From a virus: a stretch of 35,420 nt of DNA. Both the position numbers and the translations under genes were made by a program. The stretch spans positions 1-35,420 of IMG/VR virus record IMGVR_UViG_3300012920_004997. One strand, written 5' to 3'. Of this stretch, positions 5,903 to 24,855 are shown in pieces (positions within the stretch are counted from its first letter, which is position 1; every line of letters begins with the position of its first letter). Below the pieces are notes generated by a model, which did no database searches, was not told the origin of the DNA, and was given only the letters and a program-made list of their open reading frames with translations.

Positions 5903-7147
5903 ATGGATAAAAGAAGTTATGACAGAAGTGAGTCGATAGACATATGTGGGAAACCATTTCACTTCACACCCGATAGGAAGGAATTCTTGGACGCATTGTC
6001 TAAGACGTTTCCCGAACAATCGGTTTTTACGAAGGAAGAAATTGAAACAGTGGGTTCATTCCCATATTGGGTCAAGTCTTCTAGATACAATTTTAGAGAT
6101 AATGGGGTATTTAATTTAACCCAAGTTCTCAGTGGATACAATGGTGGATATTCTGAAAATGCAGTTGTTCCTCCAGTTGCACCTCAAGTGGTTTCTATTG
6201 CACCACCAGTTGCTCCACAAAACATGCCAGTTGCCGCTGCGACTGAGTCTGTTAATCTGAATGACAATGTAAAAATCATTCCCGAGAAAATGTCTAATTA
6301 TGTTCCTTTTGGACACTTCAAAGATGTCAAGAACATAATCAAGTCTAAAATCTTCTTCCCAGTATTCATTACTGGATTGAGTGGTAATGGTAAAACATTA
6401 ATGATTGAACAAACTTGTGCTCAATTGAAGAGAGAACTTTTCAGAGTTAATATTACTATTGAAACTGATGAAGACGACCTAATGGGTGGTCATACTCTAG
6501 TCAATGGTAATGTAGTCTTCAGAGAAGGCCCTGTTATCAAAGCTATGAGAAAAGGTGCTGTCCTTCTCTTAGACGAAGTTGACTTAGGTTCTAACAAACT
6601 TATGTGTCTACAATCAGTTCTTGAAGGTAAAGGATACCTAATCAAGAAAACTGGTGAGTGGGTGACTCCAAAACAAGGTTTCACAATTCTTGCAACTGCA
6701 AACACTAAAGGACAAGGTTCTGAAGATGGAAAGTTCATTGGAACTCAAATCATGAACGAAGCTATGTTGGAAAGGTTTGCAATCACAATGCAACAAGAAT
6801 ATCCTCCAGTGACTACTGAGAGAAAAATTCTTTCAAAAGAAATGGAGTTGACTGGAGAAGTTGACGAAGAGTTCGTGACCAAACTAGTAGATTGGGCAGA
6901 CATAATCAGAAAAACCTTCTACGAAGGTGCGATTGATGACGTTGTCACTACTAGAAGACTGGTTCACATTGTGAATGCATACAGAATGTTTGGTGACAAA
7001 CTGAAGTCAATCCAAATGTGTATTTCAAGGTTTGACGAAGAAACTAGAAATAGTATCCTCGACCTTTACACTAAGATTGACGCAGGTGTCGATTTAAATG
7101 CTGAAAACCCAGTTGACGAAACTGAAACCTCAGAGTATAATGACTAG
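5903..7147 (+). CDS. cobS: MoxR/CobS-like AAA+ ATPase
   Basis: This is a 414-residue AAA+ ATPase of the type annotated cobS in T4-like cyanophages. Motifs: Walker A GLSGNGKT (158-165), Walker B VLLLDEVD (220-227), sensor 1 LATANT (263-268) and a likely arginine finger in LERF (R291). An N-terminal domain of about 85 residues is joined by a proline-rich linker (about 88-112, PPVAPQ twice). The VWA protein upstream is its probable partner, as in MoxR-VWA and CobS-CobT pairs. It has its own promoter and a good Shine-Dalgarno (AAGGAG). The target is unknown; I would not infer cobalt insertion from the family name alone. Confidence 0.9.
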   Translation: MDKRSYDRSESIDICGKPFHFTPDRKEFLDALSKTFPEQSVFTKEEIETVGSFPYWVKSSRYNFRDNGVFNLTQVLSGYNGGYSENAVVPPVAPQVVSIAPPVAPQNMPVAAATESVNLNDNVKIIPEKMSNYVPFGHFKDVKNIIKSKIFFPVFITGLSGNGKTLMIEQTCAQLKRELFRVNITIETDEDDLMGGHTLVNGNVVFREGPVIKAMRKGAVLLLDEVDLGSNKLMCLQSVLEGKGYLIKKTGEWVTPKQGFTILATANTKGQGSEDGKFIGTQIMNEAMLERFAITMQQEYPPVTTERKILSKEMELTGEVDEEFVTKLVDWADIIRKTFYEGAIDDVVTTRRLVHIVNAYRMFGDKLKSIQMCISRFDEETRNSILDLYTKIDAGVDLNAENPVDETETSEYND

Positions 7148-7448
7148 TATGTTTGGAAAAAACAAGAAGATTGACTACAAATATAACGAGGGTGAACTCA
7201 TTAAAGAGTTCTCCTCGTATATTGATTCAACTTACGACAAACACTATAGTTTAAACAAATACCAGTCCACTGAATTCATTATTGACAGTGGACATGGGGA
7301 AGGATTTTGTATCGGAAACATAATGAAATATGCACAAAGATACGGAAAAAAAGATGGTAGGAATAGAGCAGACCTTTTGAAGGTTTTACATTATGGTCTA
7401 TTCATGCTTCATGTTCACGATAAGGCAGAAAAGGAGGCTAAAAAGTGA
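7140..7448 (+). CDS. DUF3310-type small protein
   Basis: This 102-residue protein shows the DUF3310 pattern: HYSLNKYQSTEFI, then EGFCIGNIMKYAQRYGKKDG, then DLLKVLHYGLFML. The family is common in phages, is often called a nucleotide-kinase-like protein, and has no proven activity. The start at 7140 gives an 8-nt overlap (ATGACTAG) with the cobS stop, the same junction geometry seen at eight other places in the window. The ATG at 7149 is an alternative and would lose only MTS. The gene ends one base into the clamp gene start (TGATG). Confidence 0.8.
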   Translation: MTSMFGKNKKIDYKYNEGELIKEFSSYIDSTYDKHYSLNKYQSTEFIIDSGHGEGFCIGNIMKYAQRYGKKDGRNRADLLKVLHYGLFMLHVHDKAEKEAKK

Positions 7449-8113
7449 TGAAAATTAGTAATGAAACGAGAGATGTGTTGAAGAACTTTTCAACAATCAA
7501 CCAAGGTATAAAGGTTGGTCAAGGAAACACACTTCAGACAATCTCAAATATGAAAAATATTCTTGCAGTTGCAACTGTAGAAGAATCATTCCCAACGGAT
7601 TTTTCTATCTACAACTTACCTGAGTTTTTGGGTGCAACGTCTTTATTGGAAGACCCCGATTTTCAATTCGGTGATGCAAGTCTAACAGTTGCAGACAACA
7701 ATTCCAGTCTTGCTTATTTCTATGCAAGTGAAGGTATGGTGACTGCACCCGAGAAAATGATAACAATGCCTGATGCAGAAATCGGTATTGATATCTCATC
7801 TACACTATTGAATGAGTTGCAGAAAGCAGCTAGTGTGTTAGGTGTTGGTGATTTGGTTCTAAGTTCAGACGGAACTGTAATCAAATTGGAAGTGACAGAT
7901 AAGAAGAATACAACTTCAAACACATTCTCAAGAATCGTGGGTGAAGGAAATGGTGTTTCATACACTATGAACTTTAAGATTGAGAACCTTAAAGTGTTAG
8001 ATGGAAACTATGAAGTCTTAGTTTCGTCTAAAGGTATTTCACACTTCAAGAACAAAGATATTGACTTGGAGTATTTTATTGCATTGGAGCCTGATTCTAA
8101 ATACAATGTTTAA
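7448..8113 (+). CDS. 45: Sliding clamp (Gp45)
   Basis: This is a 221-residue DNA polymerase processivity clamp of the T4 Gp45 family. The recognisable N-terminal region is RDVLKNFSTINQGIKVGQGN, followed by LAVATVEESFP and IYNLPEFLGA, close to the T4 pattern. In T4 the trimeric ring holds polymerase on DNA and also couples late transcription to replication through Gp33/Gp55. The ATG at 7448 is preferred over the adjacent GTG (7445) because AAGGAGG lies at the proper distance upstream. The clamp loader genes 44 and 62 follow, as in T4. Confidence 0.93.
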   Translation: MKISNETRDVLKNFSTINQGIKVGQGNTLQTISNMKNILAVATVEESFPTDFSIYNLPEFLGATSLLEDPDFQFGDASLTVADNNSSLAYFYASEGMVTAPEKMITMPDAEIGIDISSTLLNELQKAASVLGVGDLVLSSDGTVIKLEVTDKKNTTSNTFSRIVGEGNGVSYTMNFKIENLKVLDGNYEVLVSSKGISHFKNKDIDLEYFIALEPDSKYNV

Positions 8114-8227
8114 CCTATATATTAGTGTAAGTATTGTGCCAGCCTTTTACAATGCATACGGGAGTAGTCCTTCTCATCAATCTTCAAGGGTGGATTACAC
8201 TGTAGTTTCGGAGGGGATTCTGCAACC
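8114..8227 (+). other. 114-nt leader between clamp and clamp loader genes
   Basis: This is a non-coding gap, unusual in this compact region and richer in G+C (about 43% by my count) than the surrounding genes. It holds a 17-codon mini-ORF (8152-8205), short inverted repeats (ATTGT/ACAAT around 8134-8154), and a strong GGAGGGG Shine-Dalgarno (8210-8216) before gene 44. I recognise no known riboswitch. Translational control of the clamp loader is possible. Confidence 0.45.
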
Positions 8228-9172
8228 ATGAGTGAATTTTTATTCGTAGAAAAGTATCGTCCTCAAACAATTGAGGACACGATACTACCTCAGAGCCTTA
8301 AAGACACTTTCAAAGAATTCGTCAATCAAGGTGAGATACCTAATCTTATGTTATGTGGTTCTGCTGGTGTAGGTAAAACTACAGTTGCAAAAGCATTATG
8401 TAATGAAATGGGTGCCGACTTTATCGTTATCAATGGTTCTGATGAGGGTAGATTGATTGACACACTAAGAACCAAAATCAAAAACTTTGCATCTACAGTA
8501 TCCCTAAGTGGTGGTGCAAAGGTTGTGATACTGGACGAAGCAGATTATATTTCTGCAGACTCAGTTCAACCTGCGTTGAGAAACTTTATTGAAGAGTTCT
8601 CTTCTAACTGTAGATTCATATTCACTTGTAATTACAAGAATAGAATAATCAAACCACTACATTCAAGAACAACTGTAATAGATTTTAAACTAACACCAAA
8701 AGACAAACAAACACTTGCTGGTGTTTTCCTCACAAGACTCAAAGAGATTTGTGATTTGGAAGATATCAAATATGACGAAAAGGTTTTGGTCGAACTTATT
8801 CTAAAGTTCTTCCCCGATTTCAGAAGGTGTATCAACGAAGTCCAAAGATATGGTGTTGGTGGTGTTATTGACACTGGTCTTATTGCAACACTAGCCGAAG
8901 AAAAACTTACACCTCTCATTGATATGATTGCAGACAAGAACTGGAAAGGAATGAGAAAGTGGGTTGGTCAGAATAGTGATAATGACTTTGATACACTATA
9001 TAGAAAAGTTTTCAATGCATTGGAACAAAGACTAGAACCTTCTAGTGTTCCAGCTGCAGTTTTGTTTATTGCAGACTATCAATACAAGTCTGCCTTTGCA
9101 ATGGATTCAGAAATCAATTTCGTTGCATGTCTAACAGAAATTATGTCGGAGTGTAAATTTAAAAATGGGTAA
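8228..9172 (+). CDS. 44: Clamp loader large subunit (Gp44)
   Basis: This is a 314-residue AAA+ ATPase that, with Gp62, opens and loads the Gp45 clamp. Motifs: Walker A GSAGVGKT (44-51), Walker B VVILDEAD (99-106) and SRT (146-148) at the place of the SRC arginine-finger motif. The N-terminus FVEKYRPQTIEDTILP is typical of RFC-like loaders. The length matches T4 Gp44 (319 residues). A strong GGAGGGG precedes the ATG. The stop overlaps the next small gene by 8 nt (ATGGGTAA). Confidence 0.95.
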   Translation: MSEFLFVEKYRPQTIEDTILPQSLKDTFKEFVNQGEIPNLMLCGSAGVGKTTVAKALCNEMGADFIVINGSDEGRLIDTLRTKIKNFASTVSLSGGAKVVILDEADYISADSVQPALRNFIEEFSSNCRFIFTCNYKNRIIKPLHSRTTVIDFKLTPKDKQTLAGVFLTRLKEICDLEDIKYDEKVLVELILKFFPDFRRCINEVQRYGVGGVIDTGLIATLAEEKLTPLIDMIADKNWKGMRKWVGQNSDNDFDTLYRKVFNALEQRLEPSSVPAAVLFIADYQYKSAFAMDSEINFVACLTEIMSECKFKNG

Positions 9173-9290
9173 ACTTAGACAATGGTTTTTTAGGTGGTTT
9201 GACAGACAAATCGAAAAGTCTTTTCAAAGACAAGCAGATAGATTGTTTGACAAATCAAAAGTTAAATATAATGACGGAGATAATACATGA
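9165..9290 (+). CDS. Hypothetical 41-residue basic amphipathic peptide
   Basis: This very short gene reads MGKLRQWFFRWFDRQIEKS and continues with further charged residues. It starts with an 8-nt overlap (ATGGGTAA) on the gene 44 stop and ends with a 4-nt overlap (ATGA) on the next gene, so it fits the tight coupling of the cluster. Aromatic and basic residues alternate so that an amphipathic helix is likely. No function is known. Reality is inferred from the junction geometry and the absence of any other gene in the interval. Confidence 0.6.
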   Translation: MGKLRQWFFRWFDRQIEKSFQRQADRLFDKSKVKYNDGDNT

Positions 9291-9469
9291 GAGCATTATT
9301 AAGTAAAGAAGATTACGAAACATTTACTGAGAAGGTGGACATAGCTTCAAGTAAAGGTGTATCAATCCCATATTCAGTTGAATATGGTGGAACTGTAGGT
9401 GAACCCACTTTTGAAGTGACACTTCTTGACGAAAATCAAGATTTAAATTTATTGGATAAAATAACATGA
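9287..9469 (+). CDS. Hypothetical small protein
   Basis: This is a 60-residue acidic protein (MRALLSKEDYETFTEKVDIA...) with no recognisable motif, membrane segment or signal. It overlaps both neighbours by 4 nt (ATGA at each end), which supports translation within the 44-62 operon. Position between the clamp loader genes could mean a replication accessory role, but nothing in the sequence shows it. Confidence 0.65.
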   Translation: MRALLSKEDYETFTEKVDIASSKGVSIPYSVEYGGTVGEPTFEVTLLDENQDLNLLDKIT

Positions 9470-9735
9470 CACAATATGATGAGAGAGTTCAATATCAAAG
9501 GGACTTACTAGCAGCTGAAGAGTGGGCAAAAGGTATTAAATCAGTTCATGCACATTCACTTAATTCAATGTGGTATGATACAAGACCACAAGATACTGAA
9601 GACGGGAAATCCGTAATGGATACACAATACTTCAGTGGACTCATTAAAAGAGAAACCAGTGACGGGTATACACTTTACTTTGGAGAAGAACTCAAAGGTG
9701 AAGAACTTGTTTACGAGTATCTTAGACAAAATTAA
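9466..9735 (+). CDS. Hypothetical small protein
   Basis: This is an 89-residue protein, not recognised. It is soluble in appearance, with AEEWAKGIKSVHAHSLNSMWYDTRP near the N-terminus and GEELVYEYLRQN at the end. It begins with a 4-nt overlap (ATGA) on the previous stop and ends with a 1-nt overlap (TAATG) on gene 62. The coupling supports expression with the clamp loader; no function can be assigned. Confidence 0.68.
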   Translation: MTQYDERVQYQRDLLAAEEWAKGIKSVHAHSLNSMWYDTRPQDTEDGKSVMDTQYFSGLIKRETSDGYTLYFGEELKGEELVYEYLRQN

Positions 9736-10127
9736 TGAGTAAACGAAATCCATTCGATTTTGTAAAGTCGGTTTCTTACGACAAAAAAAACCTCATGGTT
9801 GATGAGGTTGAAGAAAAAGCATATCAACCATTCTTAACTAATAAAGCATTATCTTATCACCAAGATTCTGTTTTTCTTACTAACGAGATGAACGTCAGAC
9901 ATGGTGCTGACAATCGTCTTCAATACCTCTTTTTCCTAAATACTCTTAGGAAAAGACAAAGGTTTTCCAAATGGAGTAAACCTTATGTTAGTAAAAAACT
10001 CGATACTTTAAAAGAGTATTATCAGATATCAACGAGAGAGGCAAAAGAGTATGTCAACCTACTATCTGATAAACAATATCGTGAATTGAAAAACAGAATG
10101 AAAACTGGTGGTAAAGATGATAGATGA
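9735..10127 (+). CDS. 62: Clamp loader small subunit (Gp62)
   Basis: This 130-residue protein has the Gp62 pattern: NPFDFVKSVSYDKKNLM near the start, then YQPFLTNKALSYHQDSVFLT, then RLQYLFFLNTLRKRQRFSKW. In T4 one Gp62 joins four Gp44 to form the clamp loader. It is shorter than T4 Gp62 (187 residues), as I recall for other marine T4-like phages. Its place just before regA matches T4 order (45-44-62-regA). The end overlaps regA by 11 nt. Confidence 0.9.
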   Translation: MSKRNPFDFVKSVSYDKKNLMVDEVEEKAYQPFLTNKALSYHQDSVFLTNEMNVRHGADNRLQYLFFLNTLRKRQRFSKWSKPYVSKKLDTLKEYYQISTREAKEYVNLLSDKQYRELKNRMKTGGKDDR

Positions 10128-10530
10128 CCAAGATAATATAGTCAAAGACCTAGTAGAGGTCACATTCCCCGAAAAAGAAGATTTCTTAAAGATAAGAGAA
10201 ACACTCTCACGTATTGGTGTAGCTTCTCGTAAAGATAAGGAATTATTTCAATCATGTCACATACTTCACAAACGTGGTAAGTATTATATAACACATTTCA
10301 AAGAATTATTCTTGTTAGACGGGAAACCTTCTAACTTAGACGAATCAGATATTGCAAGAAGGAACACTATAGTGTCACTTTTAGAACAATGGAACCTAGT
10401 TTCAGTAGTTCATGCGCACCAAGTATCTGAACCCAAAGCACCCTTAAGTCAGATAAAAATCATTCCATTTAGAGAAAAAAACGAGTGGAAATTGACAACA
10501 AAATACTCAATTGGGTCAAATAATACCTAA
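10117..10530 (+). CDS. regA: RegA translational repressor
   Basis: This 137-residue protein closely follows T4 RegA: FLKIRETLSRIGVASRKDK, LFQSCHILHKRGKYYITHF and EWKLTTKYSIGSN. RegA binds the start regions of several early mRNAs, including those of 44, 45 and regA itself in T4, and blocks translation. Here it is about 15 residues longer, mainly at the N-terminus. The ATG at 10117 is preferred over a GTG at 10108; it overlaps the gene 62 stop by 11 nt. The following late promoter marks the end of this early replication operon. Confidence 0.95.
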   Translation: MIDDQDNIVKDLVEVTFPEKEDFLKIRETLSRIGVASRKDKELFQSCHILHKRGKYYITHFKELFLLDGKPSNLDESDIARRNTIVSLLEQWNLVSVVHAHQVSEPKAPLSQIKIIPFREKNEWKLTTKYSIGSNNT

Positions 10531-10540
10531 ATATAGGGAT

Positions 10541-10548
10541 TATAAATA
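10541..10548 (+). promoter_or_regulatory. T4-type late promoter box TATAAATA
   Basis: This is a perfect box between regA and a small membrane gene. AGGAGG (10553-10558) precedes the ATG at 10563; the predicted start near 10554 lies at the edge of that ribosome site. Confidence 0.8.
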
Positions 10549-10562
10549 TAACAGGAGGAACT

Positions 10563-10769
10563 ATGTTCTCAGCTATCATAGATTTCATTATGGGGATTTG
10601 GAATTTACTTATGGTAATTCCAGTGGTAATATCAATCTGTAGTGTGATTGTTGCTTTAACACCAACACCAGCAGATGATAAACTTTGGGCTAAAGTGTAT
10701 AAATGGTTAGAAGTCCTTGCACTAGCGATAGGTAAAGCAAAAGACAAAAACCCTTTGTTAGATAAATAA
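10563..10769 (+). CDS. Small membrane protein
   Basis: This 68-residue protein has one strong hydrophobic segment (about residues 4-32, MGIWNLLMVIPVVISICSVI) and a short C-terminal region with LTPTPADDKLWAKVYKWLE and LALAIGKAKDK. I recall that TPTPADD and the following amphipathic helix recur in marine phage proteins of unknown role, sometimes near lysis genes. A late promoter and a perfect AGGAGG support late, strong expression. A holin-like or membrane-scaffolding role is possible but unproven. Confidence 0.75.
   Translation: MFSAIIDFIMGIWNLLMVIPVVISICSVIVALTPTPADDKLWAKVYKWLEVLALAIGKAKDKNPLLDK
10761..10768 (+). promoter_or_regulatory. Late promoter-like box GATAAATA
   Basis: This is a GATAAATA variant overlapping the end of the preceding gene. 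The predicted start near 10774 leaves a 13-nt leader before the ATG at 10787. Confidence 0.5.
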
Positions 10770-10786
10770 ATTAGAGGTAATAAATT

Positions 10787-11032
10787 ATGGAAATTATCGG
10801 AATTATAGTTGTAGTTCTAGTAGTTGCTTACTTTGTTTCAAACAACAAAAAAGATAAAAAGGTAAAGGTTCAAGCACCAGTTGCAAAACCAAAACCAAAA
10901 AAACCAAGTGTTGCAGAATTAAAGAAGTTAACTAAGAACCAATTGATTGAACTTGCAGAAAAGAAAAATCTGAAAGTCAAGAAGAGTGGTGCTAAAGCTG
11001 CAGTTATTTCAGAAATTCGTGACCAACTTTAA
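10787..11032 (+). CDS. Membrane-anchored protein with C-terminal SAP/Rho-N-like domain
   Basis: This is an 81-residue protein with an N-terminal transmembrane helix (residues 2-18, EIIGIIVVVLVVAYFVS), a Lys/Pro-rich linker (KKDKKVKVQAPVAKPKPKKP) and a C-terminal helix-extension-helix. The C-terminal domain reads SVAELKKLTKNQLIELAEKK and LKVKKSGAKAAVISEIRDQL, which fits a SAP or Rho N-terminal domain that binds nucleic acid. It could tether phage DNA or RNA to the inner membrane. A strong terminator lies just downstream. Confidence 0.75.
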   Translation: MEIIGIIVVVLVVAYFVSNNKKDKKVKVQAPVAKPKPKKPSVAELKKLTKNQLIELAEKKNLKVKKSGAKAAVISEIRDQL

Positions 11033-11055
11033 TTAGTTGACAAAAAGTCATTTTA

Positions 11056-11077
11056 GGGGGACAGTGTCCCCCTTTTT
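11056..11077 (+). terminator. Rho-independent terminator
   Basis: A 7-bp perfect G/C stem (GGGGGAC at 11056-11062 with GTCCCCC at 11066-11072, loop AGT) is followed by TTTTT (11073-11077). It insulates the upstream small membrane genes from the late curli cassette. Confidence 0.92.
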
Positions 11078-11079
11078 AT

Positions 11080-11087
11080 TATAAATA
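11080..11087 (+). promoter_or_regulatory. T4-type late promoter box TATAAATA heading the curli cassette
   Basis: This perfect box begins 2 nt after the terminator's T-run. The predicted start near 11093 lies one base before the ATG at 11094. No other convincing promoter is visible up to 18045, so the whole curli/cyclase cassette may be one late transcript. Confidence 0.8.
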
Positions 11088-11093
11088 GAAGGT

Positions 11094-11390
11094 ATGGAAG
11101 AAGTATTTAATTTGATAGGTGACGTTGGAGTTCCCATTGCAATGGCATTGATAATGGGATTCTTTATATTTTTAGTTATCAAACAAATCTTCGAAGGGAT
11201 AGTTGATAATATTAAGACACTTACAATGTTTTGTGAATCGTTAGAGAATCGTGCAAGAACAATGTCTAACGAAATGGTAAAGATTGATATGCTAGTGTCA
11301 AGTGCATTAGAGTTAAGACCTGATATAGAGAGAGTTGCAAGAGCAGAGAACTTTATAGAGGACGGGAAACTTGATGTAAGAAGGGATTAA
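11094..11390 (+). CDS. Small membrane/coiled-coil protein, first of a tandem pair
   Basis: This 98-residue protein has a short N-terminal periplasmic or cytosolic segment, a transmembrane helix (about 12-33, GVPIAMALIMGFFIFLVIKQI) and a helical charged C-terminal region. It resembles the next protein in plan and around the membrane helix (GVPIAMALIMGFF versus GFPVVMMIGLGYF), so the two look like distant paralogues. The topology resembles BhlA/UviB-type holin-like proteins, but that is only a similarity of plan. It is the first gene of the late cassette that carries csgF and csgG. Confidence 0.75.
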   Translation: MEEVFNLIGDVGVPIAMALIMGFFIFLVIKQIFEGIVDNIKTLTMFCESLENRARTMSNEMVKIDMLVSSALELRPDIERVARAENFIEDGKLDVRRD

Positions 11391-11391
11391 C

Positions 11392-11673
11392 ATGGAAGCC
11401 GAAGTCCCCTTTATTGTCGAACTAATAACCGATTACGGATTCCCAGTTGTAATGATGATTGGACTAGGATATTTCGTATATTATGTATGGTGGTTTATTG
11501 GTGAAAAGATAGACCCCGAAATTGAAAAAATGCATTTTGCATTAATCCGAGTAATTGACCAAACTAGAATGCTAGACCAAGACTTAATACGTCTTAAAGA
11601 AAAGGTTGACGTAGTTCTAGAATATCGTGAGAATGAAAAGAAAAAGATTTCGGCAGACCATAATAATGATTAA
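11392..11673 (+). CDS. Small membrane/coiled-coil protein, second of a tandem pair
   Basis: This 93-residue protein has a transmembrane helix at about 16-37 (GFPVVMMIGLGYFVYYVWWFI) and a predicted coiled coil after it (EIEKMHFALIRVIDQTRMLD, RLKEKVDVVLEYRENEKKK). It begins 1 nt after the preceding stop and overlaps csgF by 8 nt (ATGATTAA). It may oligomerise in the inner membrane. Roles to consider are holin-like function or an inner-membrane helper for curli export; neither is shown by the sequence. Confidence 0.77.
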   Translation: MEAEVPFIVELITDYGFPVVMMIGLGYFVYYVWWFIGEKIDPEIEKMHFALIRVIDQTRMLDQDLIRLKEKVDVVLEYRENEKKKISADHNND

Positions 11674-12163
11674 ATTTATTTTACCAATTTCAATTTTACT
11701 ATCATTCCAAGTTCACGGAACGGAGATAGTTCATAAGTTTAAAAACCCCTCATTCTCAGGCGTTGGAACGGGTGCTCATTATCTTACAATTGAGAACCAA
11801 GAGTCCAGCCGTAAGAAAGCAATAGAAGACGCATTAGAGTCTGCAAGGAAAGCTGCTGAAAGAGAAGCAGAGAACACTACACTTGCAAAATTTATTAGGA
11901 ACCTAGAAAGCAGAATCTATGCACAGCTATCTAAACAATTAGTTGAATCAATGTTTAGTAATGATAATGCATCAAACTTTGGTTCATTTACACTTGAGGG
12001 AAGTGTTATAACATGGGAAGTTATAACAGGTGAAGACGGAACTGATTTTATAAAGATGACTATTGTTGATACGAATGGAACAACAACAGTTATAGAAATT
12101 CCAGTCGGAACAGGAAACTTTGGACAAGACCCTGATACGGGAACTGGTGGTGGAGATGGTTAA
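11666..12163 (+). CDS. csgF: CsgF-like curli assembly factor
   Basis: This is a 165-residue exported protein. The signal peptide is MIKFILPISILLSFQVHG, with the mature protein starting near TEIVHKFKNPSFSGVGTG. That N-terminus matches the CsgF signature (F+NPxFxG), the segment that in E. coli CsgF plugs into the CsgG channel. The C-terminal half (FGSFTLEGSVITWEV, IKMTIVDTNGTTTVIEIP) matches the CsgF beta-sheet domain, including the final T-x-T-x-I-E pattern. A helical, Ala/Glu-rich middle part is typical. A glycine-rich tail ends the protein. The start overlaps the previous stop by 8 nt. It lies directly before csgG. Confidence 0.88.
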   Translation: MIKFILPISILLSFQVHGTEIVHKFKNPSFSGVGTGAHYLTIENQESSRKKAIEDALESARKAAEREAENTTLAKFIRNLESRIYAQLSKQLVESMFSNDNASNFGSFTLEGSVITWEVITGEDGTDFIKMTIVDTNGTTTVIEIPVGTGNFGQDPDTGTGGGDG

Positions 12164-13106
12164 GTATTTACTTGCACTAACCCTTCTAATAAGTGGTTGT
12201 GCATCCGTCCCAAAGTTCACGGAAACACCCCAAGATTGTAGAAACTGGGAACAAGGTGTCCGAAAGGATATGGCAACTGGAATAAAGAAACCAGTCACAA
12301 GAGATTATATTTGTGTAGAGTTTCCCGAAGTTGTTAAATTACCTTCATACGTAGAACTTTTAAATCTTCCCCCTGCCGAAGAAAGACCTATTGTTGCAGT
12401 GTATAACTTCAATGATAAAACTGGTCAGAGAAAAGCAAGGGAAGGTATTGCAGATTTCTCTACTGCAGTCACCCAAGGTGGTGTCGAAATGGTTATCGAT
12501 GCACTTAAGACTGCTGGTGGTGGAACATGGTTTAGAGTTGTAGAAAGAAATGGAATCGATGCGTTAGTTAGAGAAAGACAGATTATTCGTTCTGCAAGAC
12601 AAGATTTTGCGAAAGCAACGGACACTGAGGCAAAAGGTGTCCAACCCTTACTATTTGCTGGAATTATAATTGAAGGTGGAATAGTAGGATATGATACTAA
12701 TATTCAAACTGGAGGTTCAGGCGCAAGAACCCTCGGCTTAGGATATAGTCAACAATATCGTCAAGATGTTGTGACCATTTCAATGAGAGCAGTTAGTGTT
12801 CTCACTGGAGAGGTATTACTTAATGTGCAAACTCGGAAATCAATACTATCCGTTGGTGGTGGTGCAGACTTGTTTAAGTTTGTAGAACAAGGAACCCAAC
12901 TAGTAGAGATTGAAGACGGAGTGGGAAATAATGAATCAGTGACTTATGCAGTGAGAACTGCTATAGAAGCTGCAGTGCTGGAATTAGTTTACCAAGGACA
13001 CGATAGAGGTTTTTGGAAAATAACAGATGGACATCGTCACCCTCATCAGAATGATGGGACTAACGACCTCCATGATTTAAATACAGAGGAAAACGAAAAT
13101 GAATAA
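12156..13106 (+). CDS. csgG: CsgG curli secretion channel, outer-membrane lipoprotein
   Basis: This is a 316-residue lipoprotein of the CsgG family, which forms the nonameric outer-membrane pore that exports curli subunits. The lipobox is LISGC (C15). Family hallmarks: IVAVYNFNDKTGQRK, ADFSTAVTQGGVEMVIDALK, FRVVERNGIDALVRERQIIR, GIIIEGGIVGYDTN, GGSGARTLGLGYSQQYR and VSVLTGEVLLNVQTRKSILS. These follow E. coli CsgG almost region by region, including the transmembrane hairpin segment near GVGAR/GSGAR. A His/Asp-rich tail follows DRGFWKI. It overlaps csgF and the next gene by 8 nt each. Finding it inside a T4-like phage is remarkable. Confidence 0.95.
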   Translation: MVKYLLALTLLISGCASVPKFTETPQDCRNWEQGVRKDMATGIKKPVTRDYICVEFPEVVKLPSYVELLNLPPAEERPIVAVYNFNDKTGQRKAREGIADFSTAVTQGGVEMVIDALKTAGGGTWFRVVERNGIDALVRERQIIRSARQDFAKATDTEAKGVQPLLFAGIIIEGGIVGYDTNIQTGGSGARTLGLGYSQQYRQDVVTISMRAVSVLTGEVLLNVQTRKSILSVGGGADLFKFVEQGTQLVEIEDGVGNNESVTYAVRTAIEAAVLELVYQGHDRGFWKITDGHRHPHQNDGTNDLHDLNTEENENE

Positions 13107-13836
13107 ACTTATTAGTTTTTGCTTAATTGCAATAATGTCGACACCAATTCTTTTCGCACAATCCGCTGATGACAACGAGATTAAGATTACCCAAACAGGT
13201 GATACTTTAGACTTGTATATAGACCAAATAGGTTTCGGTAATAAGATAGGTTCTGATGCTTCTGCTTCAGGTGCTATGACTATTACTGGTGCAACTTTGG
13301 ACTTTGATTTGGATTTTATAGGAAATTCAAATAAACTGTTCGGTTCTGTTGAAGCAGATAGTTCAGTGTATAAACTAGACTTTACTGGTGATTCCAATAG
13401 TATAGACTGGTTAATCGGAGATGTAGGAAGTGCAGATTCATCGGACATTAACTTTGATGTGACAGGAAGTAGTAATACTTTTGACTTAGACCAAGGTAGT
13501 GTTTATAGTGCAGAAAGACTTAATTCAGACTTAATACTAATCGGTAGTTCGAATGTTTTTGATATTGATTGGGAAAGTGATGACTTAACTTGGGACTTTG
13601 AAGTCACGGGTTCAAGTAATAACATTAATACACTTCAGTCAGACGGAGAACAATCTTTGGTTGTTGACCTAGACGGAGATAGTGCTGATGTAGATATTAC
13701 ACAAATTAGTGGAACATGTGTAAGTGGAGCTGGAAACAGTTGTGCTTCACCTAATGCACTAATCACACTGGATATTACAAGTGATAATGCAACAATTCAA
13801 ATTAATCAAAAAGATTCATCTAGCGATAGTAATTAA
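13099..13836 (+). CDS. Curlin-like repeat protein 1 (acidic, secreted)
   Basis: This 245-residue protein has a signal peptide (MNKLISFCLIAIMSTPILFAQ, cleavage near residue 22) and an acidic, Ser/Asp/Asn-rich mature part. ITQTGDTLDLYIDQIGFGN resembles a curlin repeat (QxGxxN). Five G-x-S-N units follow at 75-78 (GNSN), 97-100 (GDSN), 123-126, 149-152 and 171-174, spaced 22-26 residues, close to the 22-23-residue curlin repeat. The end has ATIQINQ. It is placed directly after csgG with an 8-nt overlap, so it is the likely cargo of the pore. It lacks some conserved Gln, so strict CsgA homology is uncertain; a beta-solenoid amyloid is inferred. Confidence 0.82.
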   Translation: MNKLISFCLIAIMSTPILFAQSADDNEIKITQTGDTLDLYIDQIGFGNKIGSDASASGAMTITGATLDFDLDFIGNSNKLFGSVEADSSVYKLDFTGDSNSIDWLIGDVGSADSSDINFDVTGSSNTFDLDQGSVYSAERLNSDLILIGSSNVFDIDWESDDLTWDFEVTGSSNNINTLQSDGEQSLVVDLDGDSADVDITQISGTCVSGAGNSCASPNALITLDITSDNATIQINQKDSSSDSN

Positions 13837-14938
13837 TCTCATGTTTATCAGTGGGGTCATACATAGTGACCCCATTGGTGATATTGTAGAGTCAGTCGGA
13901 CTCGGAAAAATTACACGTCAAAATACAGATTTCGTATCACCCGAAGTGGGTTATGATATTGAACTTTATGACGTTGCAGAAACAGTCAACGGAAGAATGA
14001 AGATTGAGATCTTAGACGAAGAAGAACTTGATTTAATTGAACACACTATCGTATACATTGACGAAGTGTATTACGACCCTAATCCGTCCAAATCAAAAAT
14101 GGCTATGAGAATGGTTCAAGGGACGGCACGATTTGCTTCAGGAACAGGTAAAAAAATAAAGAAAGCAAATATAGACATATCAACACCAACAGCACAAATT
14201 GCAATTAACGGAACAGATTTCACAACTACAGTTGACGAGCTAGGAAGAACACTCGTTATACTTTTGCCTGACGAAGACGGAATTACACCTTCAGGTGAGA
14301 TTAGAGTTTATAATGACGGAGGTGAAACTATACTGAATAAGGCATATCAAGCAACAATGGTATCAAGTGTTGACCAACCACCAACAGGTTCAGTAGTTAT
14401 ACAAAACTTAACAACTTCAATGATTGATAATATGTTTATTGTCAATCCACCAACAGAGGTCAGAGAACAAATAGAAGAAGAAGCACGGGACGACCAAAAT
14501 CAAGACCAAGGAATACTAGACGTAGACTTCTTAGAATTTAATGAGTTAGAAGCAGATGCACTTGAGGATACACTTGAAGAAGATTTTAGTGAATTAGATA
14601 TAGACCTATTAGACGTAGATTTCCTTCGTGACTTACTAGACGTAGTAGAAGAATTAGAATTAACAACTGCAAAATTAGGAGATGCACAAAAGTCAGGTGG
14701 AACTGGTGACATTAGTTTACAAGGTGCCGTATTAGGATTTAACAAAGATTCACAATATAACGTGTTCATACAAGACGGAGATTTATATCTTTACAGAAAT
14801 GTGAATGGTGTAATCGAAATTATAGTGACACAAGGTGGAAGTGGATTTATTGAAACAAATGTCGAAGGTTATCAAGGTATTATTGAGTTCGGAAATGGTG
14901 ACCCAAGTATACGTATCTTTATCAACCAATCTAACTAA
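13787..14938 (+). CDS. FecR-domain exported protein
   Basis: This 383-residue protein begins inside the end of the previous gene (50-nt overlap). The ATG at 13787 gives a full signal peptide: basic FKLIKK, hydrophobic HLAIVINLMFISGV, cleavage near IHS-D. A shorter start at 13841 would remove it, so 13787 is preferred. Residues ~45-170 form a FecR-type domain (SPEVGYDIELYDVAETVNGR, GTARFASGTGKK, ISTPTAQIAINGTDF). A very acidic segment (~240-300) contains LDVDFL twice. In bacteria FecR domains sense or regulate at the periplasmic face and, as I recall, often sit next to CHASE2 cyclases, as happens here. Confidence 0.85.
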   Translation: MQQFKLIKKIHLAIVINLMFISGVIHSDPIGDIVESVGLGKITRQNTDFVSPEVGYDIELYDVAETVNGRMKIEILDEEELDLIEHTIVYIDEVYYDPNPSKSKMAMRMVQGTARFASGTGKKIKKANIDISTPTAQIAINGTDFTTTVDELGRTLVILLPDEDGITPSGEIRVYNDGGETILNKAYQATMVSSVDQPPTGSVVIQNLTTSMIDNMFIVNPPTEVREQIEEEARDDQNQDQGILDVDFLEFNELEADALEDTLEEDFSELDIDLLDVDFLRDLLDVVEELELTTAKLGDAQKSGGTGDISLQGAVLGFNKDSQYNVFIQDGDLYLYRNVNGVIEIIVTQGGSGFIETNVEGYQGIIEFGNGDPSIRIFINQSN

Positions 14939-14959
14939 ATAATACATAGGAGGCAACTT

Positions 14960-15106
14960 ATGGATATTTTACTAAAAGTCTTTAAGTGGCATGAGAGAAG
15001 AACAGATTGGTGGATAGACCAGTTTGGAATTTCTCAATATCAAGCCATGTGGTTTGCATGGTGCAAAGGTATATTAACAGTATTAATATTACAATGGATA
15101 TTTTAA
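14960..15106 (+). CDS. Small membrane peptide (48 residues)
   Basis: This short gene has a strong Shine-Dalgarno (AGGAGG, 14948-14953) 6 nt before the ATG. It reads MDILLKVFKWHERRTDWWID, then a region with QYQAMWFAW, and ends with a hydrophobic GILTVLILQWIF. It is probably membrane-bound and rich in Trp. Its stop codon lies 10 nt inside the next gene. No family is known to me. It could be an accessory of the cassette or a lysis-type peptide. Confidence 0.7.
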   Translation: MDILLKVFKWHERRTDWWIDQFGISQYQAMWFAWCKGILTVLILQWIF

Positions 15107-15897
15107 AGAAAATATTTCTTATCATAGGGATTTCTATAATCCCTATGTTTTCCTATGCAGACGATAATCACGTTCATGTAGAACAAGTCAATGGTGGTGA
15201 CAATGCAGATTTATCAATTGACCAAATAGGTTATAACAACCTCGTAAATTTTTCTTTTGACCACCAAAACAATACAATAGACCTCATACAAAAAGGAAAC
15301 AATATGTATTTTGGTTATACGGATACATGGGGTTCAGGTAAAGCATGGGGTGGTGATGTAGACGGATATAATAATGAAATAGAAGTTAGACAAAGATGTT
15401 CTGCTTCAAGTTGTAATGATAATGATTTTGGTTTACATGTATGGGGTAATCATAACCAAATTGTCTTTGGTCAAGGATATGAATTAAATAATTCACTATC
15501 TCCAACGTGGAGTTGGGACGGAAACGAGCCTGGTGGAAACTATGTAAGATTAGATATACATGGTGACTACAATGATTTTAAAGGAAGTCAGAAACAAGAT
15601 AATGATACTATCGAACATAGAATGATTTGGAACATTTATGGTGATTATAATGATGTCTTTTCAAAACAATTACAGAATGGAGATAAGACACTTACAGGAA
15701 CAATCAATAATGATTACAATGAAGTTAGTGTAGTTCAGAAAAAGACTGGAGCTCACACTGCAACAATAACACTAGGTGGAACATACGGAACAGATTTAAC
15801 TTTAACACAAACAGGAAGCACAGCACAAACATATACACTAACTCAAACTTGTCATACAGTTGGGGGTTGCACTGTAAACGTCACTCAAGGTAATTAA
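15094..15897 (+). CDS. Curlin-like repeat protein 2 (secreted)
   Basis: This 267-residue protein has a signal peptide (MDILKKIFLIIGISIIPMFSYA, cleavage near residue 22) and a mature part rich in Asn, Gln, Asp, Gly and Tyr. Curlin-type units G-x-x-N-x-(4-6)-Q recur: QIGYNN (44-49), GYNNEIEVRQ (91-100), GNHNQIVFGQ (118-127), GDYNDFKGSQ (157-166), GDYNDVFSKQ (183-192) and NDYNEVSVVQ (206-215). LTLTQTG and TQTC repeats end the protein; two Cys pairs are present (102/107, 253/259). It shares IDQIG with repeat protein 1. A minor or nucleator subunit like CsgB is possible. The ATG at 15094 is chosen because it yields the signal peptide. Confidence 0.85.
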   Translation: MDILKKIFLIIGISIIPMFSYADDNHVHVEQVNGGDNADLSIDQIGYNNLVNFSFDHQNNTIDLIQKGNNMYFGYTDTWGSGKAWGGDVDGYNNEIEVRQRCSASSCNDNDFGLHVWGNHNQIVFGQGYELNNSLSPTWSWDGNEPGGNYVRLDIHGDYNDFKGSQKQDNDTIEHRMIWNIYGDYNDVFSKQLQNGDKTLTGTINNDYNEVSVVQKKTGAHTATITLGGTYGTDLTLTQTGSTAQTYTLTQTCHTVGGCTVNVTQGN

Positions 15898-17741
15898 TGT
15901 ATTCGTGGAAAACAGTTGTAATAACCATAGGGTTATTATTCGGTCTTAAGATATGGAATCCCTATTTCATAGAAAATATATCATGGTCTTATTTTGATTA
16001 TCTACACCAATCTCAGGAAGTAGTTCAGGTAGATAATATTGTCTTAGTAGATATAGACGAACCTTCACTTGAAGTGTATGGTCAGTATCCTTGGCCAAGG
16101 TCTATTTACAGGGATTTAATGTTAGACACTTCATACACTAATACACATGTTTTCACTCAACTCTTTAAAGAACCTGATAGATTTCAGGGTGACGAAGAAT
16201 TTGCAGAAGGTTTAGTTAACCGATTATCAATTCTATCTTCTGCACCAACAGTTCAAAAAGATACTGGTTCTGCACCTTTTGTAAGAACTAGTGTTTTCGG
16301 TGGAGGAAATATAGACGACCATATATGGAGTTTCTCAGGAATTTCTTCACCGATTCCAATACTAGAACAAAATTCATATGGTTCAGGTGTGACAATTACT
16401 ACACCACCAATCAGTGGAACTGCAAACTTTGACGGGACAGTTCGTTCTGCACCATTAATTGTTTCTGCAAATGGTGTAGTGTATCCCTCAGTTGCACTAG
16501 AAGTTTTACGTGCAATGTATGACCAACCTAATTATCAAACTCGTGTGACACCCGAAGTTGGAATCGAATGGATTCGTATTGGAAGACAACCCCCAATCGA
16601 AACCACTCCAACTGCAGATATCCTTATAGGATATTGGAATGACTTCGAGAGGGTGTCTGCAAAAGATTTACCAAACTCTAACCTAGAGAACAAGATTCTA
16701 ATTTGGGGTCTGACGGCTGAAGGTCTGAATAATCCAGTTTCAACCCCAGTGGGTGTAAAGTATCCTCACGAAGTTCAAGGTGCAATCCTCCACTCCGTCG
16801 CCACAGGAGTTCAAATACAACAATCCTACTATCTTGAATTCTTAGAAGTCGTTCTTCTATTGACAGTCCTTTTAGGAATAATGGTATCGGTCTACACACT
16901 TCCCACAATTTTCTCGGGGATAGTGAGTCTAGGTATCGTTGGATTTCAGGTGGGTTTGGGTTTCTATTTGTGGACTTCAAGTTTCGTTCTTTTCGATATT
17001 TTCTACTCATCGATGGCCTCCATAATAGTTTTTGGACATGCTTCCTTCAACAAATATTATAAAACTTATCAACTCAAAGAACAAATTAAGAAGCAGTTTC
17101 AAAAGTATTTATCTCCCGACATGGTTGACCAACTTGCAGAGAATCCCGAATTATTGAAACTAGGTGGTGAGAGAAAAGAAATGACATTCATGTTCATGGA
17201 CATATGTGGATTCACACCCATAAGTGAACACTATAAAAACAATGACGACCCCGAAGGATTGGTCGAACTCATAAACAGATTTTTGGACATGCAAACTAAG
17301 ATTATCCTAAATAATAAAGGAACCATAGACAAATATATGGGCGATTGTATCATGAGTTTTTGGAATGCTCCTTTGGATTGTGAAAACCATGCTGAACTCG
17401 CAGTAAAAAGTGCAATAGAAGTATTAGAAGCTACTAAGGAATTAAATGAAGAACTTTCTCCTCTCAATCTGCCTCCTATTAACGTTGGTATTGGTATCTC
17501 CACAGGCGAATGCATCGTTGGAAACATGGGGTCAGAAGTTAGATTTGACTATTCCGTCATTGGAGATGCAGTCAACTTGGGTGCTAGACTCGAAGGACAA
17601 ACACGTAATTACGATGGGGTTGACGTGTTGTTATCATCAGAAACATATAGACAGTGTCCAAACAGAAAATTTTCTGAAGTCGATAGAATACTCGTCAAGG
17701 GAAAAAGTGAGAAAGTCACTATCTACACTCCGCTTAGTTGA
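15897..17741 (+). CDS. Membrane adenylate cyclase with CHASE2 sensor domain
   Basis: This 614-residue receptor-type class III nucleotide cyclase has an N-terminal helix (~6-20), an extracytoplasmic CHASE2 domain (~40-310, with VLVDIDEPSLEVYGQYPWPR), three membrane helices (~315-382) and a cytoplasmic cyclase domain (~425-600). Catalytic residues are intact: metal ligands D435 (MDICGFT) and D483 (KYMGDCIM), K479 for adenine, S553 at the second base-recognition position (Asp or Thr in most adenylate cyclases), and N560 and R564 (VNLGARLE) for the transition state. It should make cAMP in response to a periplasmic signal. Its stop/start with the upstream curlin gene overlap by 1 nt (TAATG). I know of no well-studied phage homologue. 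Confidence 0.93.
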   Translation: MYSWKTVVITIGLLFGLKIWNPYFIENISWSYFDYLHQSQEVVQVDNIVLVDIDEPSLEVYGQYPWPRSIYRDLMLDTSYTNTHVFTQLFKEPDRFQGDEEFAEGLVNRLSILSSAPTVQKDTGSAPFVRTSVFGGGNIDDHIWSFSGISSPIPILEQNSYGSGVTITTPPISGTANFDGTVRSAPLIVSANGVVYPSVALEVLRAMYDQPNYQTRVTPEVGIEWIRIGRQPPIETTPTADILIGYWNDFERVSAKDLPNSNLENKILIWGLTAEGLNNPVSTPVGVKYPHEVQGAILHSVATGVQIQQSYYLEFLEVVLLLTVLLGIMVSVYTLPTIFSGIVSLGIVGFQVGLGFYLWTSSFVLFDIFYSSMASIIVFGHASFNKYYKTYQLKEQIKKQFQKYLSPDMVDQLAENPELLKLGGERKEMTFMFMDICGFTPISEHYKNNDDPEGLVELINRFLDMQTKIILNNKGTIDKYMGDCIMSFWNAPLDCENHAELAVKSAIEVLEATKELNEELSPLNLPPINVGIGISTGECIVGNMGSEVRFDYSVIGDAVNLGARLEGQTRNYDGVDVLLSSETYRQCPNRKFSEVDRILVKGKSEKVTIYTPLS

Positions 17742-18045
17742 ACCACCTTCACATATTGATTGGACTATTTTTGTAGGATTACAAGTTGCAGATGTCTACA
17801 CCACATATCGTGGACTCAAATATGATTGTGTAAGAGAAATGAATCCACTCATAGGTGAAAGACCTTCAGTCAGTGATATGGTCTTTACTAAGAGTGTAAT
17901 ACTTATTCCAGCCTTACAATATGATTTAAGACAAGGTAATCTAACCAAAAAAGGAATAAGACAGATAAATGGATTTATGTCTATGGTTGTAGGAAATAAT
18001 TACAATGTTTGGCATAATTCTGAAAAATATTGCAAAAAAAGATAA
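17707..18045 (+). CDS. Small membrane protein, last gene of the curli cassette
   Basis: This is a protein of about 112 residues if it starts at the GTG at 17707, which has AAGGGA just upstream and overlaps the cyclase by 35 nt. It has a membrane segment with DWTIFVGLQVADVYTTYRGL, then CVREMNPLIGERPS, a second hydrophobic stretch SVILIPALQYDL, and a basic end. The pattern D-x-x-T-T-x-x-G-L with E-x-N-P-L resembles small DUF5658-like membrane proteins. The frame is open upstream to an ATG at 17446, which encodes a signal-peptide-like start within the cyclase gene; I consider the shorter form more likely. Function is unknown. Confidence 0.65.
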   Translation: MRKSLSTLRLVEPPSHIDWTIFVGLQVADVYTTYRGLKYDCVREMNPLIGERPSVSDMVFTKSVILIPALQYDLRQGNLTKKGIRQINGFMSMVVGNNYNVWHNSEKYCKKR

Positions 18046-20626: not shown

Positions 20627-20936
20627 TCTAACACCATTATTTGACGAGGGAGTTTATTGTGTCGTAGACAATAATAAGCTTGACATGTCGGGTATTCAAA
20701 TTCTCAAAGGAGAATGGAAGGACGTTATCTATGTTTATGGTAAAGTTGGATTCGAAGAAGGAAAACCAAATATAAATTTTCAGAGAGATATTGTTGTCAT
20801 TCCCGAAAATCATGACTTAGACGAACTCCTAAATAATAAGGAATTAAATAACCTTATGGGTGATATACTCGTAGAATTACTACAGGAACAAATGAGGAAA
20901 GAGAATGAACAAGGAATTACTGAAGGAACAGATTAA
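20619..20936 (+). CDS. Hypothetical acidic protein
   Basis: This protein is 105 residues from a TTG at 20619, which lies 7 nt after GGAG (20608-20611) and overlaps the methyltransferase stop by 8 nt (TTGGATAG), the usual junction form here. It reads LTPLFDEGVYCVVDNNKLDM, then GEWKDVIYVYGKVGF, IVVIPENHDLDELLNNKELN and a helical end. A mixed alpha/beta fold is likely; no family is recognised. An ATG further upstream (20547) is in frame but lies well inside the methyltransferase. The end overlaps the lysozyme start by 32 nt. Confidence 0.7.
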   Translation: MDSLTPLFDEGVYCVVDNNKLDMSGIQILKGEWKDVIYVYGKVGFEEGKPNINFQRDIVVIPENHDLDELLNNKELNNLMGDILVELLQEQMRKENEQGITEGTD

Positions 20937-21369
20937 AAGACACGAAGGTGAAGTTTTAGAAATTTACGAAGACTCACTAGGATATTTAACGTTTGGTGTT
21001 GGACACTTAGTTAAAGAAGACGACCCCGAATATGGACAACCAGTAGGAACACCAGTTTCACAAGAGAGAGTAGACGAAGTTTACGAACATGATTTTGAGA
21101 AACACTTAAAAGAAACTATACACTTGTATACAACAAAAGGTGGTTCAGAAGCTGGATTCCAAACACTACCCGAAAACATTCAACACGTATTAGTCAATAT
21201 GACTTTCAATTTAGGTATCACTAGATTTGGTAAGTTTAATAATATGTGGAAAGCAGTTATTCAAGAAGACTGGTTAAAAATGGGTGAGGAAATGGAAGAC
21301 TCACGTTGGTTTGGACAAGTAGGTAGAAGGTCAGTAGAACTACAAGAAATGGTGTGGAAACATGCCTAA
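20905..21369 (+). CDS. T4-type lysozyme (GH24 endolysin)
   Basis: This 154-residue muramidase cleaves peptidoglycan at lysis. The catalytic triad has exact T4 lysozyme spacing: E14 (RHEGE), D23 (YEDSLG) and T29 (YLTFGVGHL). The C-terminal lobe shows VLVNMTFNLG and FGKFNNMWKA followed by DSRWFGQVGRRS, all typical of the family. There is no signal peptide, so a holin or another membrane breach must release it; candidates here are the small membrane proteins at 10563, 11094, 11392 or 25285. The start overlaps the previous gene by 32 nt and its stop overlaps the next by 8 nt (ATGCCTAA). Confidence 0.95.
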   Translation: MNKELLKEQIKRHEGEVLEIYEDSLGYLTFGVGHLVKEDDPEYGQPVGTPVSQERVDEVYEHDFEKHLKETIHLYTTKGGSEAGFQTLPENIQHVLVNMTFNLGITRFGKFNNMWKAVIQEDWLKMGEEMEDSRWFGQVGRRSVELQEMVWKHA

Positions 21370-24432: not shown

Positions 24433-24855
24433 ATGGCATATAGTAAAGAAGTAGTAAAACGATTTGAATCCGTTTTAAATAACCCCGAAAAACATGCTGT
24501 TGGAAGATTCGACCCTAACGACCCTATGGTTGCAACAGGAATGGAAGGAGCTCCAGCATGTGGTGACGTTATGAAACTTCAGTTGAAATTAGATTTAGAC
24601 GAAAGAATCATTGACGTAAAATTCAAAACCTATGGGTGTGGAAGTGCAATTGCAAGTTCTACTACTTTTGTAGAAATGCTTAAGGGTAAAACTATAGAAG
24701 AAGCAAAACTTATCAAGGATAAAGACATTGCAGCTATATTAGATTTACCACCAATTAAATTGCATTGTTCTGTTCTTGCAGAAGGTTCGATTAGAAAAGC
24801 AATCGAAGATTGGGAACAGAAGTCTGCACATAGGAAACACAATCAAAATGTATGA
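24433..24855 (+). CDS. iscU: IscU/NifU-like iron-sulfur cluster scaffold
   Basis: This 140-residue scaffold protein has all the cluster ligands of IscU: C43 and D45 (APACGD), C69 (TYGCGSAIASS), H111 and C112 (KLHCSVLAE). The SAIASSTTFVEMLKGKTIEEA segment is diagnostic. IscU receives sulfur from a cysteine desulfurase and builds Fe-S clusters for transfer to client proteins. The LPPIKLHCS segment corresponds to the LPPVKLHCS loop recognised by Hsc66/HscA in E. coli. The phage carries no desulfurase in this window, so it would rely on host IscS or SufS. Clients are unknown; the YkgJ-like protein at 33671 is a conceivable one. Confidence 0.95.
   Translation: MAYSKEVVKRFESVLNNPEKHAVGRFDPNDPMVATGMEGAPACGDVMKLQLKLDLDERIIDVKFKTYGCGSAIASSTTFVEMLKGKTIEEAKLIKDKDIAAILDLPPIKLHCSVLAEGSIRKAIEDWEQKSAHRKHNQNV

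Follow-up and report, generated by a model that had tools for sequence, protein, structure and literature searches.

Why would a marine T4-like phage carry genes for a curli secretion pore, curlin-like repeat proteins and an adenylate cyclase as one block? The question is raised by positions 11094 to 18045 of the virus record IMGVR_UViG_3300012920_004997 (IMG/VR), whose 35,420 bases, likely a fragment, were analyzed in full and are referred to here as the window. The genes of this cassette all lie on the + strand, most of them sharing a few bases with a neighbor or nearly abutting it. With a probability of roughly 0.6, we favor reading it as a phage-borne system for type VIII (curli) secretion, which would be expressed late and would export amyloid-like fiber proteins, accompanied by a sensor that makes cyclic AMP (cAMP). 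Judged from sequence, the cassette is real, conserved and already described in kind; its fiber formation and purpose we infer. New points are the insertion site, the late promoter, a likely correction of a published "kinase" label, an operon in Hyphomonas, a missing cAMP receptor and an overprinted gene. The features, in window coordinates, are as follows.

11055 to 11073 (+): intrinsic terminator, 8 pairs (6 of them G-C) and then a T-run, which sets the cassette apart from the upstream replication genes
11080 to 11087 (+): T4-type late promoter box TATAAATA, beginning 14 nucleotides (nt) 5' of the first ATG; conserved across loci
11094 to 11390 (+): tmA, 98 amino acids (aa), one hydrophobic stretch; phrog_18771; no kinase domain; probably one "HK" (histidine kinase) of the literature
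11392 to 11673 (+): tmB, paralog of tmA (profile comparison, E value of 5e-12)
11666 to 12163 (+): CsgF (PF10614, E 2.9e-15)
12156 to 13106 (+): CsgG outer-membrane pore lipoprotein (PF03783, E 3.8e-50), with a LISGC lipobox
13099 to 13836 (+): curlin-repeat protein 1 (curlin 1), signal-like N terminus; PF07012, GxxN motifs, predicted beta-solenoid
13787 to 14938 (+): FecR-domain protein, signal-like N terminus (PF04773, E 2.1e-7; phrog_37870)
14960 to 15106 (+): 48-aa peptide with a hydrophobic C terminus; homologs in 37 of 83 viral loci
15094 to 15897 (+): curlin-like protein 2 (curlin 2), signal-like N terminus; weak NCBIfam CsgA match, predicted beta-solenoid
15897 to 17741 (+): CHASE2-adenylate cyclase (CHASE2 PF05226, Guanylate_cyc PF00211), catalytic residues nearly invariant
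17446 to 18045 (+): DUF5658 protein, signal-like N terminus; its first 98 codons overprint the cyclase end in the +1 frame

The preferred starts are ATG 11666 for csgF, ATG 13787 for fecR and ATG 15094 for curlin 2; most analyses used other starts.

Predicted secretion pore and candidate cargo

A preliminary description of this DNA, made from its letters alone, had listed these genes as a co-directional, mostly overlapping series behind a terminator and a late promoter, and they are present as listed. It had assigned CsgF and CsgG to curli secretion, which the profile searches bore out: the protein at 12156 to 13106 scored 170.6 bits against PF03783 (cut-off, 20.8) and aligned to Escherichia coli CsgG structures with an E value of 2e-45. 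The FecR domain and the CHASE2/adenylate cyclase (E 1.9e-26 for PF05226 and 2.1e-18 for PF00211) were likewise recovered. As for curlin-repeat cargo, the claim stood for curlin 1, which the profile search placed in the curlin family; curlin 2 is a weaker candidate.

Curlin 1 matched the Pfam family Curlin_rpt (PF07012) with an E value of 8.6e-5 and 22.8 bits, above the cut-off of 20.7. It contains seven GxxN motifs, compared with a mean of 1.5 in shuffled sequences, a number reached in none of 5,000 shuffles. In an alignment of 33 copies, the G..N and Q positions typical of curlin are among those that never vary, which speaks for selection on the repeat and against decay. Curlin 2 gave only a weak match to the NCBIfam CsgA model (E 0.026), and its GxxN count was reached in 229 of 5,000 shuffles; its aligned copies share conserved glycine, asparagine and glutamine positions. 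A curlin 2 match was missing between fecR and the cyclase in 13 of the 301 viral loci, which include fragments and repeated contigs and are not independent.

Structure models of both proteins were all-beta, predicted beta-solenoids that match beta-helices (the curlin 2 model, mean predicted local distance difference test [pLDDT] of 75.6, was begun at 15085 and has three extra N-terminal residues). A second structure comparison returned generic beta-helices (SufB/SufD, Z of 14 to 17). When the curlin alignments were used as profiles against the PDB, curlin 1 found nothing and curlin 2 only weak, unrelated matches. The comparisons of these models thus back a predicted beta-solenoid for both curlin-like proteins and nothing more specific.

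A late-type promoter and the lysis alternative

The count of TATAAATA in the window, 4 against 2.67 expected, was not above chance, so that support for a late box is comparative. In 109 of 171 distinct upstream sequences, NATAAATA was found within 60 nt 5' of tmA (shuffled sequences, 4.7); its commonest distance from the ATG was 13 nt, seen 67 times. It was also found 5' of csgF (42/162, against 8.3 after shuffling), with low counts before the other genes: tmB, 1/157; csgG, 0/155; curlin 1, 3/148; fecR, 0/125; curlin 2, 6/96; and cyclase, 5/60. In the structural part of the annotated Pelagibacter phage HTVC008M, the box stood at 10 of 33 gene starts listed by hand, three of them at −13. Hairpins with T-runs similar to the window terminator are visible before tmA in many loci of the regA type. 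Late expression of the cassette, as the preliminary description had proposed from its promoter, is supported by this cross-phage comparison. T4 late promoters have their box at about −13 to −6 from the transcription start; if this rule is valid here, many cassette messages would be leaderless.

The two genes behind the box, tmA and tmB, encode paralogous proteins of ca. 95 aa with one hydrophobic stretch each. PMC9599517 (cited, like the other papers named here, from excerpts of its text) places a short "HK," sometimes two, ahead of CsgF. Going by position and shortness, these published histidine kinases are probably tmA and tmB and hence misnamed, as no kinase domain was found in Pfam at an E value of ≤0.1 among 28 tmA and 32 tmB members, and the label fails on the HisKA and HATPase domains. 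A tmB match occurred in six annotated phage records, namely, two of HTVC008M and four strains of Melnitz, a Methylophilales phage; they are six of the seven annotated phage records with a CsgG match, the seventh being a 1,499-base Salmonella phage record. Only three viral loci had tmA or tmB without csgF or csgG, two of which end there, while the third (L303) is rearranged.

Because lysozyme genes occur near the block, we also weighed a lysis cassette, in which holin-like tmA/tmB and an outer-membrane hole made of CsgG/CsgF would aid lysozyme in progeny release. This alternative extends the pinholin idea put forward for Melnitz in PMC9004378, and we regard it as rather unlikely. The late box would fit its timing, and 11 of the 28 tmA members matched a holin PHROG (phrog_4898) at an E value of ≤0.1, but these matches were weak (best, 0.0024), as were those to YvrJ (4 of 32 tmB members, best 0.044; 1 of 28 tmA members, 0.023). 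Phage_lysozyme was found in 19 of 36 CsgG-bearing phage records, always in the orientation of csgG and no more than 12.5 kb away from it, a proximity that is forced because many of the 36 are short fragments; the other 17, the complete HTVC008M and Melnitz among them, had none. Where 1 kb was available to either side (49 distinct loci), a homolog of the window lysozyme (20905 to 21369) lay within 1 kb of the cassette in just 9, and for this reason a lysis module is kept only as a rival. It also leaves the two curlins, FecR and the cyclase unexplained.

A FecR-domain protein and a conserved cyclase

In the FecR-domain protein, PF04773 was the sole family above its cut-off. FecR-type anti-sigma regulators carry a cytoplasmic anti-sigma N-terminal domain ahead of the membrane segment. 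The signal-like hydrophobic segment of the window protein occupies residues 7 to 25 and therefore leaves no space for such a domain, so that an identity as an anti-sigma regulator is not supported.

The window cyclase keeps all six class III residues, that is, two metal-binding Asp, the adenine-site Lys and Asp, and the transition-state Asn and Arg. All 44 sequences, of which 43 are viral and one is from Hyphomonas, had both metal Asp and the adenine-site Lys; where the sequences had letters at the positions, the adenine-site Asp and the transition-state Arg were found in 42/42 and the Asn in 41/42. Judging from this conservation, the cassette cyclase should be enzymatically active. The Asn exception is the Melnitz cyclase (L003, 13526 to 15577), with Ser at that position; by eye, it also retains a C-terminal tail resembling that of the Hyphomonas cyclase.

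A FecR protein beside a CHASE2 cyclase is not peculiar to phages. With a FecR profile built from the phage sequences plus Hyphomonas, and 30 loci from 67 matching genomes of 142, FecR lay within ca. 1.5 kb of the cyclase in only 3 of the 30. The pairing thus exists in Alphaproteobacteria but is not the rule in that sample, and a general association was rejected.

A gene overprinting the cyclase end

Downstream, a 199-aa frame opens inside the cyclase gene, in the +1 frame and 296 nt before the end of the cyclase stop codon, and overlaps its final 98 codons. Its product scored 24.5 bits against DUF5658 (PF18902), just below the cut-off of 25.2. Among distinct cyclase genes followed by a DUF5658 gene, 28 of 28 were stop-free in the +1 frame from residue 530; the 51 other cyclases all had 2 to 14 stops in that frame, although a longer end in some of them adds to the number. 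These counts are not independent events, because the sequences are related and about three changes suffice to explain the trait on a FastTree tree. Synonymous shuffling of the window cyclase left the +1 frame open in 1 of 2,000 trials.

Along similar lines, differences at fourfold-degenerate sites were 0.384 in the overlap and 0.573 immediately before it, whereas the control group showed no such fall (0.593 versus 0.558). Third-position diversity was 0.351 versus 0.475, with bootstrap intervals apart, against 0.551 versus 0.538 in the control. In order to check for circularity, we searched with only the DUF5658 portion that lies past the cyclase stop, which gave 31 loci, 29 of them used for the model; the other two are also open into the cyclase. 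None of the 31 had a DUF5658 frame ending short of the cyclase, although 29 had been found via the full-length frame and a very divergent, nonoverlapping gene could be missed. HTVC008M had no DUF5658 match. A literature search for DUF5658 together with phage found no paper; the family is mentioned in neither PMC9599517 nor PMC9004378, and "overprint" has no occurrence in PMC9599517.

We consider it clearly probable that an exported DUF5658 protein arose by overprinting in this phage clade. The codons for the catalytic end of the cyclase would also encode, in the +1 frame, its signal peptide and first ca. 98 residues. A sensor enzyme and an exported partner would then come from the same nucleotides, within a late, movable amyloid-export cassette whose cAMP lacks a recognized receptor in the phage or its presumed host.

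Gene order and insertion site

Allowing for missing genes, 274 of the 301 viral loci fit the order tmA-tmB-csgF-csgG-curlin 1-fecR-(48 aa)-curlin 2-cyclase. The remainder were the rearranged L303, two loci with repeated matches, and 24 whose tmA match stands between csgF and csgG and not ahead of tmB, which may be a profile cross-match. In the window, the cassette stands between regA and gp43 of a T4-like backbone: peptide deformylase, a peptidase, CobS, the sliding clamp gp45, the clamp loader proteins gp44 and gp62 and RegA precede it, and Hsp20, the lysozyme, the DNA polymerase gp43 and UvsX follow. The nearest relatives of this gp43 in the annotated phage collection are polymerases of marine cyanophages and single-cell marine viruses (ca. 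48% identity). The regA-gp43 gap of HTVC008M is without a cassette, which there lies between gp32 and tail genes; in other loci, it stands beside lysozyme or after uvsX/helicase genes. On these arrangements, the cassette is a single block kept intact at differing genome positions in different phages. The possibility of a chimeric assembly, which the preliminary description had raised, is unlikely because the block recurs with both its flanks on other contigs, of which L011 and L013 span everything between the peptidase gene and gp43, these two included.

Some further observations concern the surroundings. Two small membrane proteins (10563 to 11032) lie between regA and the cassette, the first preceded by its own TATAAATA box at 10541; they are present in 44 of 83 viral loci, a count equal to that of regA. 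Right after the DNA polymerase, a NifU-like N-terminal protein (24433 to 24855) has a late-type box 14 nt upstream. Two long contigs, L296 (216,820 bases) and L298 (339,794 bases), also hold the cassette and are possibly jumbo phages or joined assemblies.

Proposed function

In the secretion reading, tmA and tmB would enter the inner membrane late in infection, and CsgG with CsgF would form an outer-membrane pore. The two curlin-like proteins, predicted beta-solenoids, would cross the inner membrane by Sec and leave via the pore, yielding amyloid-like fibers on infected cells or their debris. As a sensor pair, the FecR protein in the periplasm and the cyclase's CHASE2 domain would report the state of the envelope or fiber by making cAMP, and in the window's clade a further, probably exported DUF5658 protein would come from overprinting the catalytic end of the cyclase. 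The likeliest benefit, and the least certain step, would be that host cells or released virions are held close in very dilute water. Cell holding and a block of superinfection have already been proposed (PMC7029224 and PMC9599517).

Several results weigh against this reading. Curlin 2 had no Pfam match, and Foldseek found no PDB match at an E value of ≤0.001 for either curlin model. Upstream of tmA, 62 of the 171 sequences were without the late box, and the HTVC008M cassette has it before csgF only, with none before tmA. The excerpt of PMC9004378 reports no clumping in Melnitz cultures. The window is a 35-kb fragment. At the CsgG lid, the alignment to the E. coli protein keeps the Phe, has Asp for Asn and does not keep the Tyr (we presume that these residues serve in the lid and constriction). 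A Pfam scan, which covered ten cassette proteins and no other part of the phage, gave no CsgE match.

The last point also bears on an uptake pore, in which CsgG lacking its CsgE gate would admit larger nutrients or cofactors during infection, as suggested in PMC7029224 and PMC9599517. A FecR-domain protein would suit such a role. The promoter type, however, is late and not early, the curlin cargo is conserved, and a FecR-type iron regulator is unsupported given that PF04773 and a signal-like segment are all that the protein offers, so that we hold uptake to be very unlikely.

The final difficulty is the fate of the cAMP. A cyclic nucleotide monophosphate (cNMP)-binding domain (PF00027) was not found in 111 of 121 genomes of the Candidatus Pelagibacter genus group (the group of a metagenome-assembled genome with that title), whose completeness is unstated. 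In each of the ten others, it sits in an 870-aa frame and not in a CRP-sized protein. None of 16 phage records, 14 of them possibly fragments, had a cAMP-binding domain. Control by a periplasmic sensor, as first described, is therefore plausible, with the output of the sensor unexplained. One could suppose instead that the cyclase acts by consuming ATP or exporting cAMP and not by classical signaling, for instance as a late switch on host energy state. Nearly invariant active-site residues without a recognized receptor would agree with this, but the genomes and most of the phage records may be incomplete, a receptor may lie outside PF00027, and a single cyclase is an unlikely ATP sink; we give this alternative a very low probability.

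That phages make curli has so far been a published hypothesis for ocean phages. Two corrections made here steer experiments: the "histidine kinases" match no kinase domain, and Melnitz does carry curlin-repeat genes. The conserved cyclase set against missing cAMP receptors, together with the overprinted gene, poses specific, testable puzzles, while the conserved promoter box points to late expression and a bacterial relative of the core operon is supplied.

Comparison with known systems

The curli system of E. coli comprises csgBAC and csgDEFG. The phage cassette shares with it CsgG and CsgF homologs and curlin repeats, and differs in adding a FecR-domain protein and a cyclase; CsgC, CsgD and CsgE had no Pfam match among the cassette proteins.

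A bacterial counterpart is found in Hyphomonas sp. TMED17 (L090, 7366 to 13389), a metagenome-assembled genome whose 705-kb contig carries csgF, csgG, curlin, fecR and a CHASE2 cyclase, arranged as in the phages. Unlike in the phages, a single curlin-like protein (504 aa, without a Pfam match) is encoded, and no tmA or tmB match at an E value of ≤1 was found in the genome. By eye, the flanking genes look like bacterial metabolic genes. In the CsgG tree, L090 groups with the phages, apart from other bacteria, with a support of 98, although the method was quick, branches are long and the direction of transfer is not fixed. Among the best 80 of 318 CsgG loci on genome contigs, only L090 has fecR and the cyclase without tmA/tmB in the flanks examined. 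Nine (L084 to L089 and L091 to L093) carry tmA and tmB and are apparently phage contigs that ended up in the genome bins of bacteria from unrelated groups, and L095 and L097 probably are as well. With the Hyphomonas CsgF as query, 41 of the order's 398 genomes gave a match, its own among them (next best E, 9.7e-12 versus 3.5e-103); 30 CsgF loci, which were too short to reach FecR or the cyclase, showed no further operon of this type. No paper was found that names CsgG, FecR and CHASE2 together.

Among phages, HTVC008M (6900 to 13807) has the same order of tmA-tmB-csgF-csgG-curlin-fecR-curlin 2-cyclase, at the different site between gp32 and tail genes, and its CsgG is 46.6% identical over 78% of the query. 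Melnitz also has this gene order; its GenBank record labels two curlin-repeat proteins, though PMC9004378 calls csgA/csgB missing.

PMC7029224 described csgF and csgG from pelagimyophages and put forward "sibling capture." For pelagiphages, both podoviruses and myoviruses, PMC9599517 (2022) reported "HK," CsgF, CsgG, CsgA/B, FecR, another CsgA/B and adenylate cyclase, in curli regions without CsgE. The complete combination, which the preliminary description had believed to be unreported, was therefore already published in the same set and order, and it is annotated in HTVC008M and Melnitz. The window differs from that type VIII secretion module in its short genes without a kinase match and in the 48-aa peptide and overprinted DUF5658 gene, which the excerpt of PMC9599517 does not name. 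It agrees with the module in the succession of one or two short genes, CsgF, CsgG, CsgA/B, FecR, CsgA/B and adenylate cyclase.

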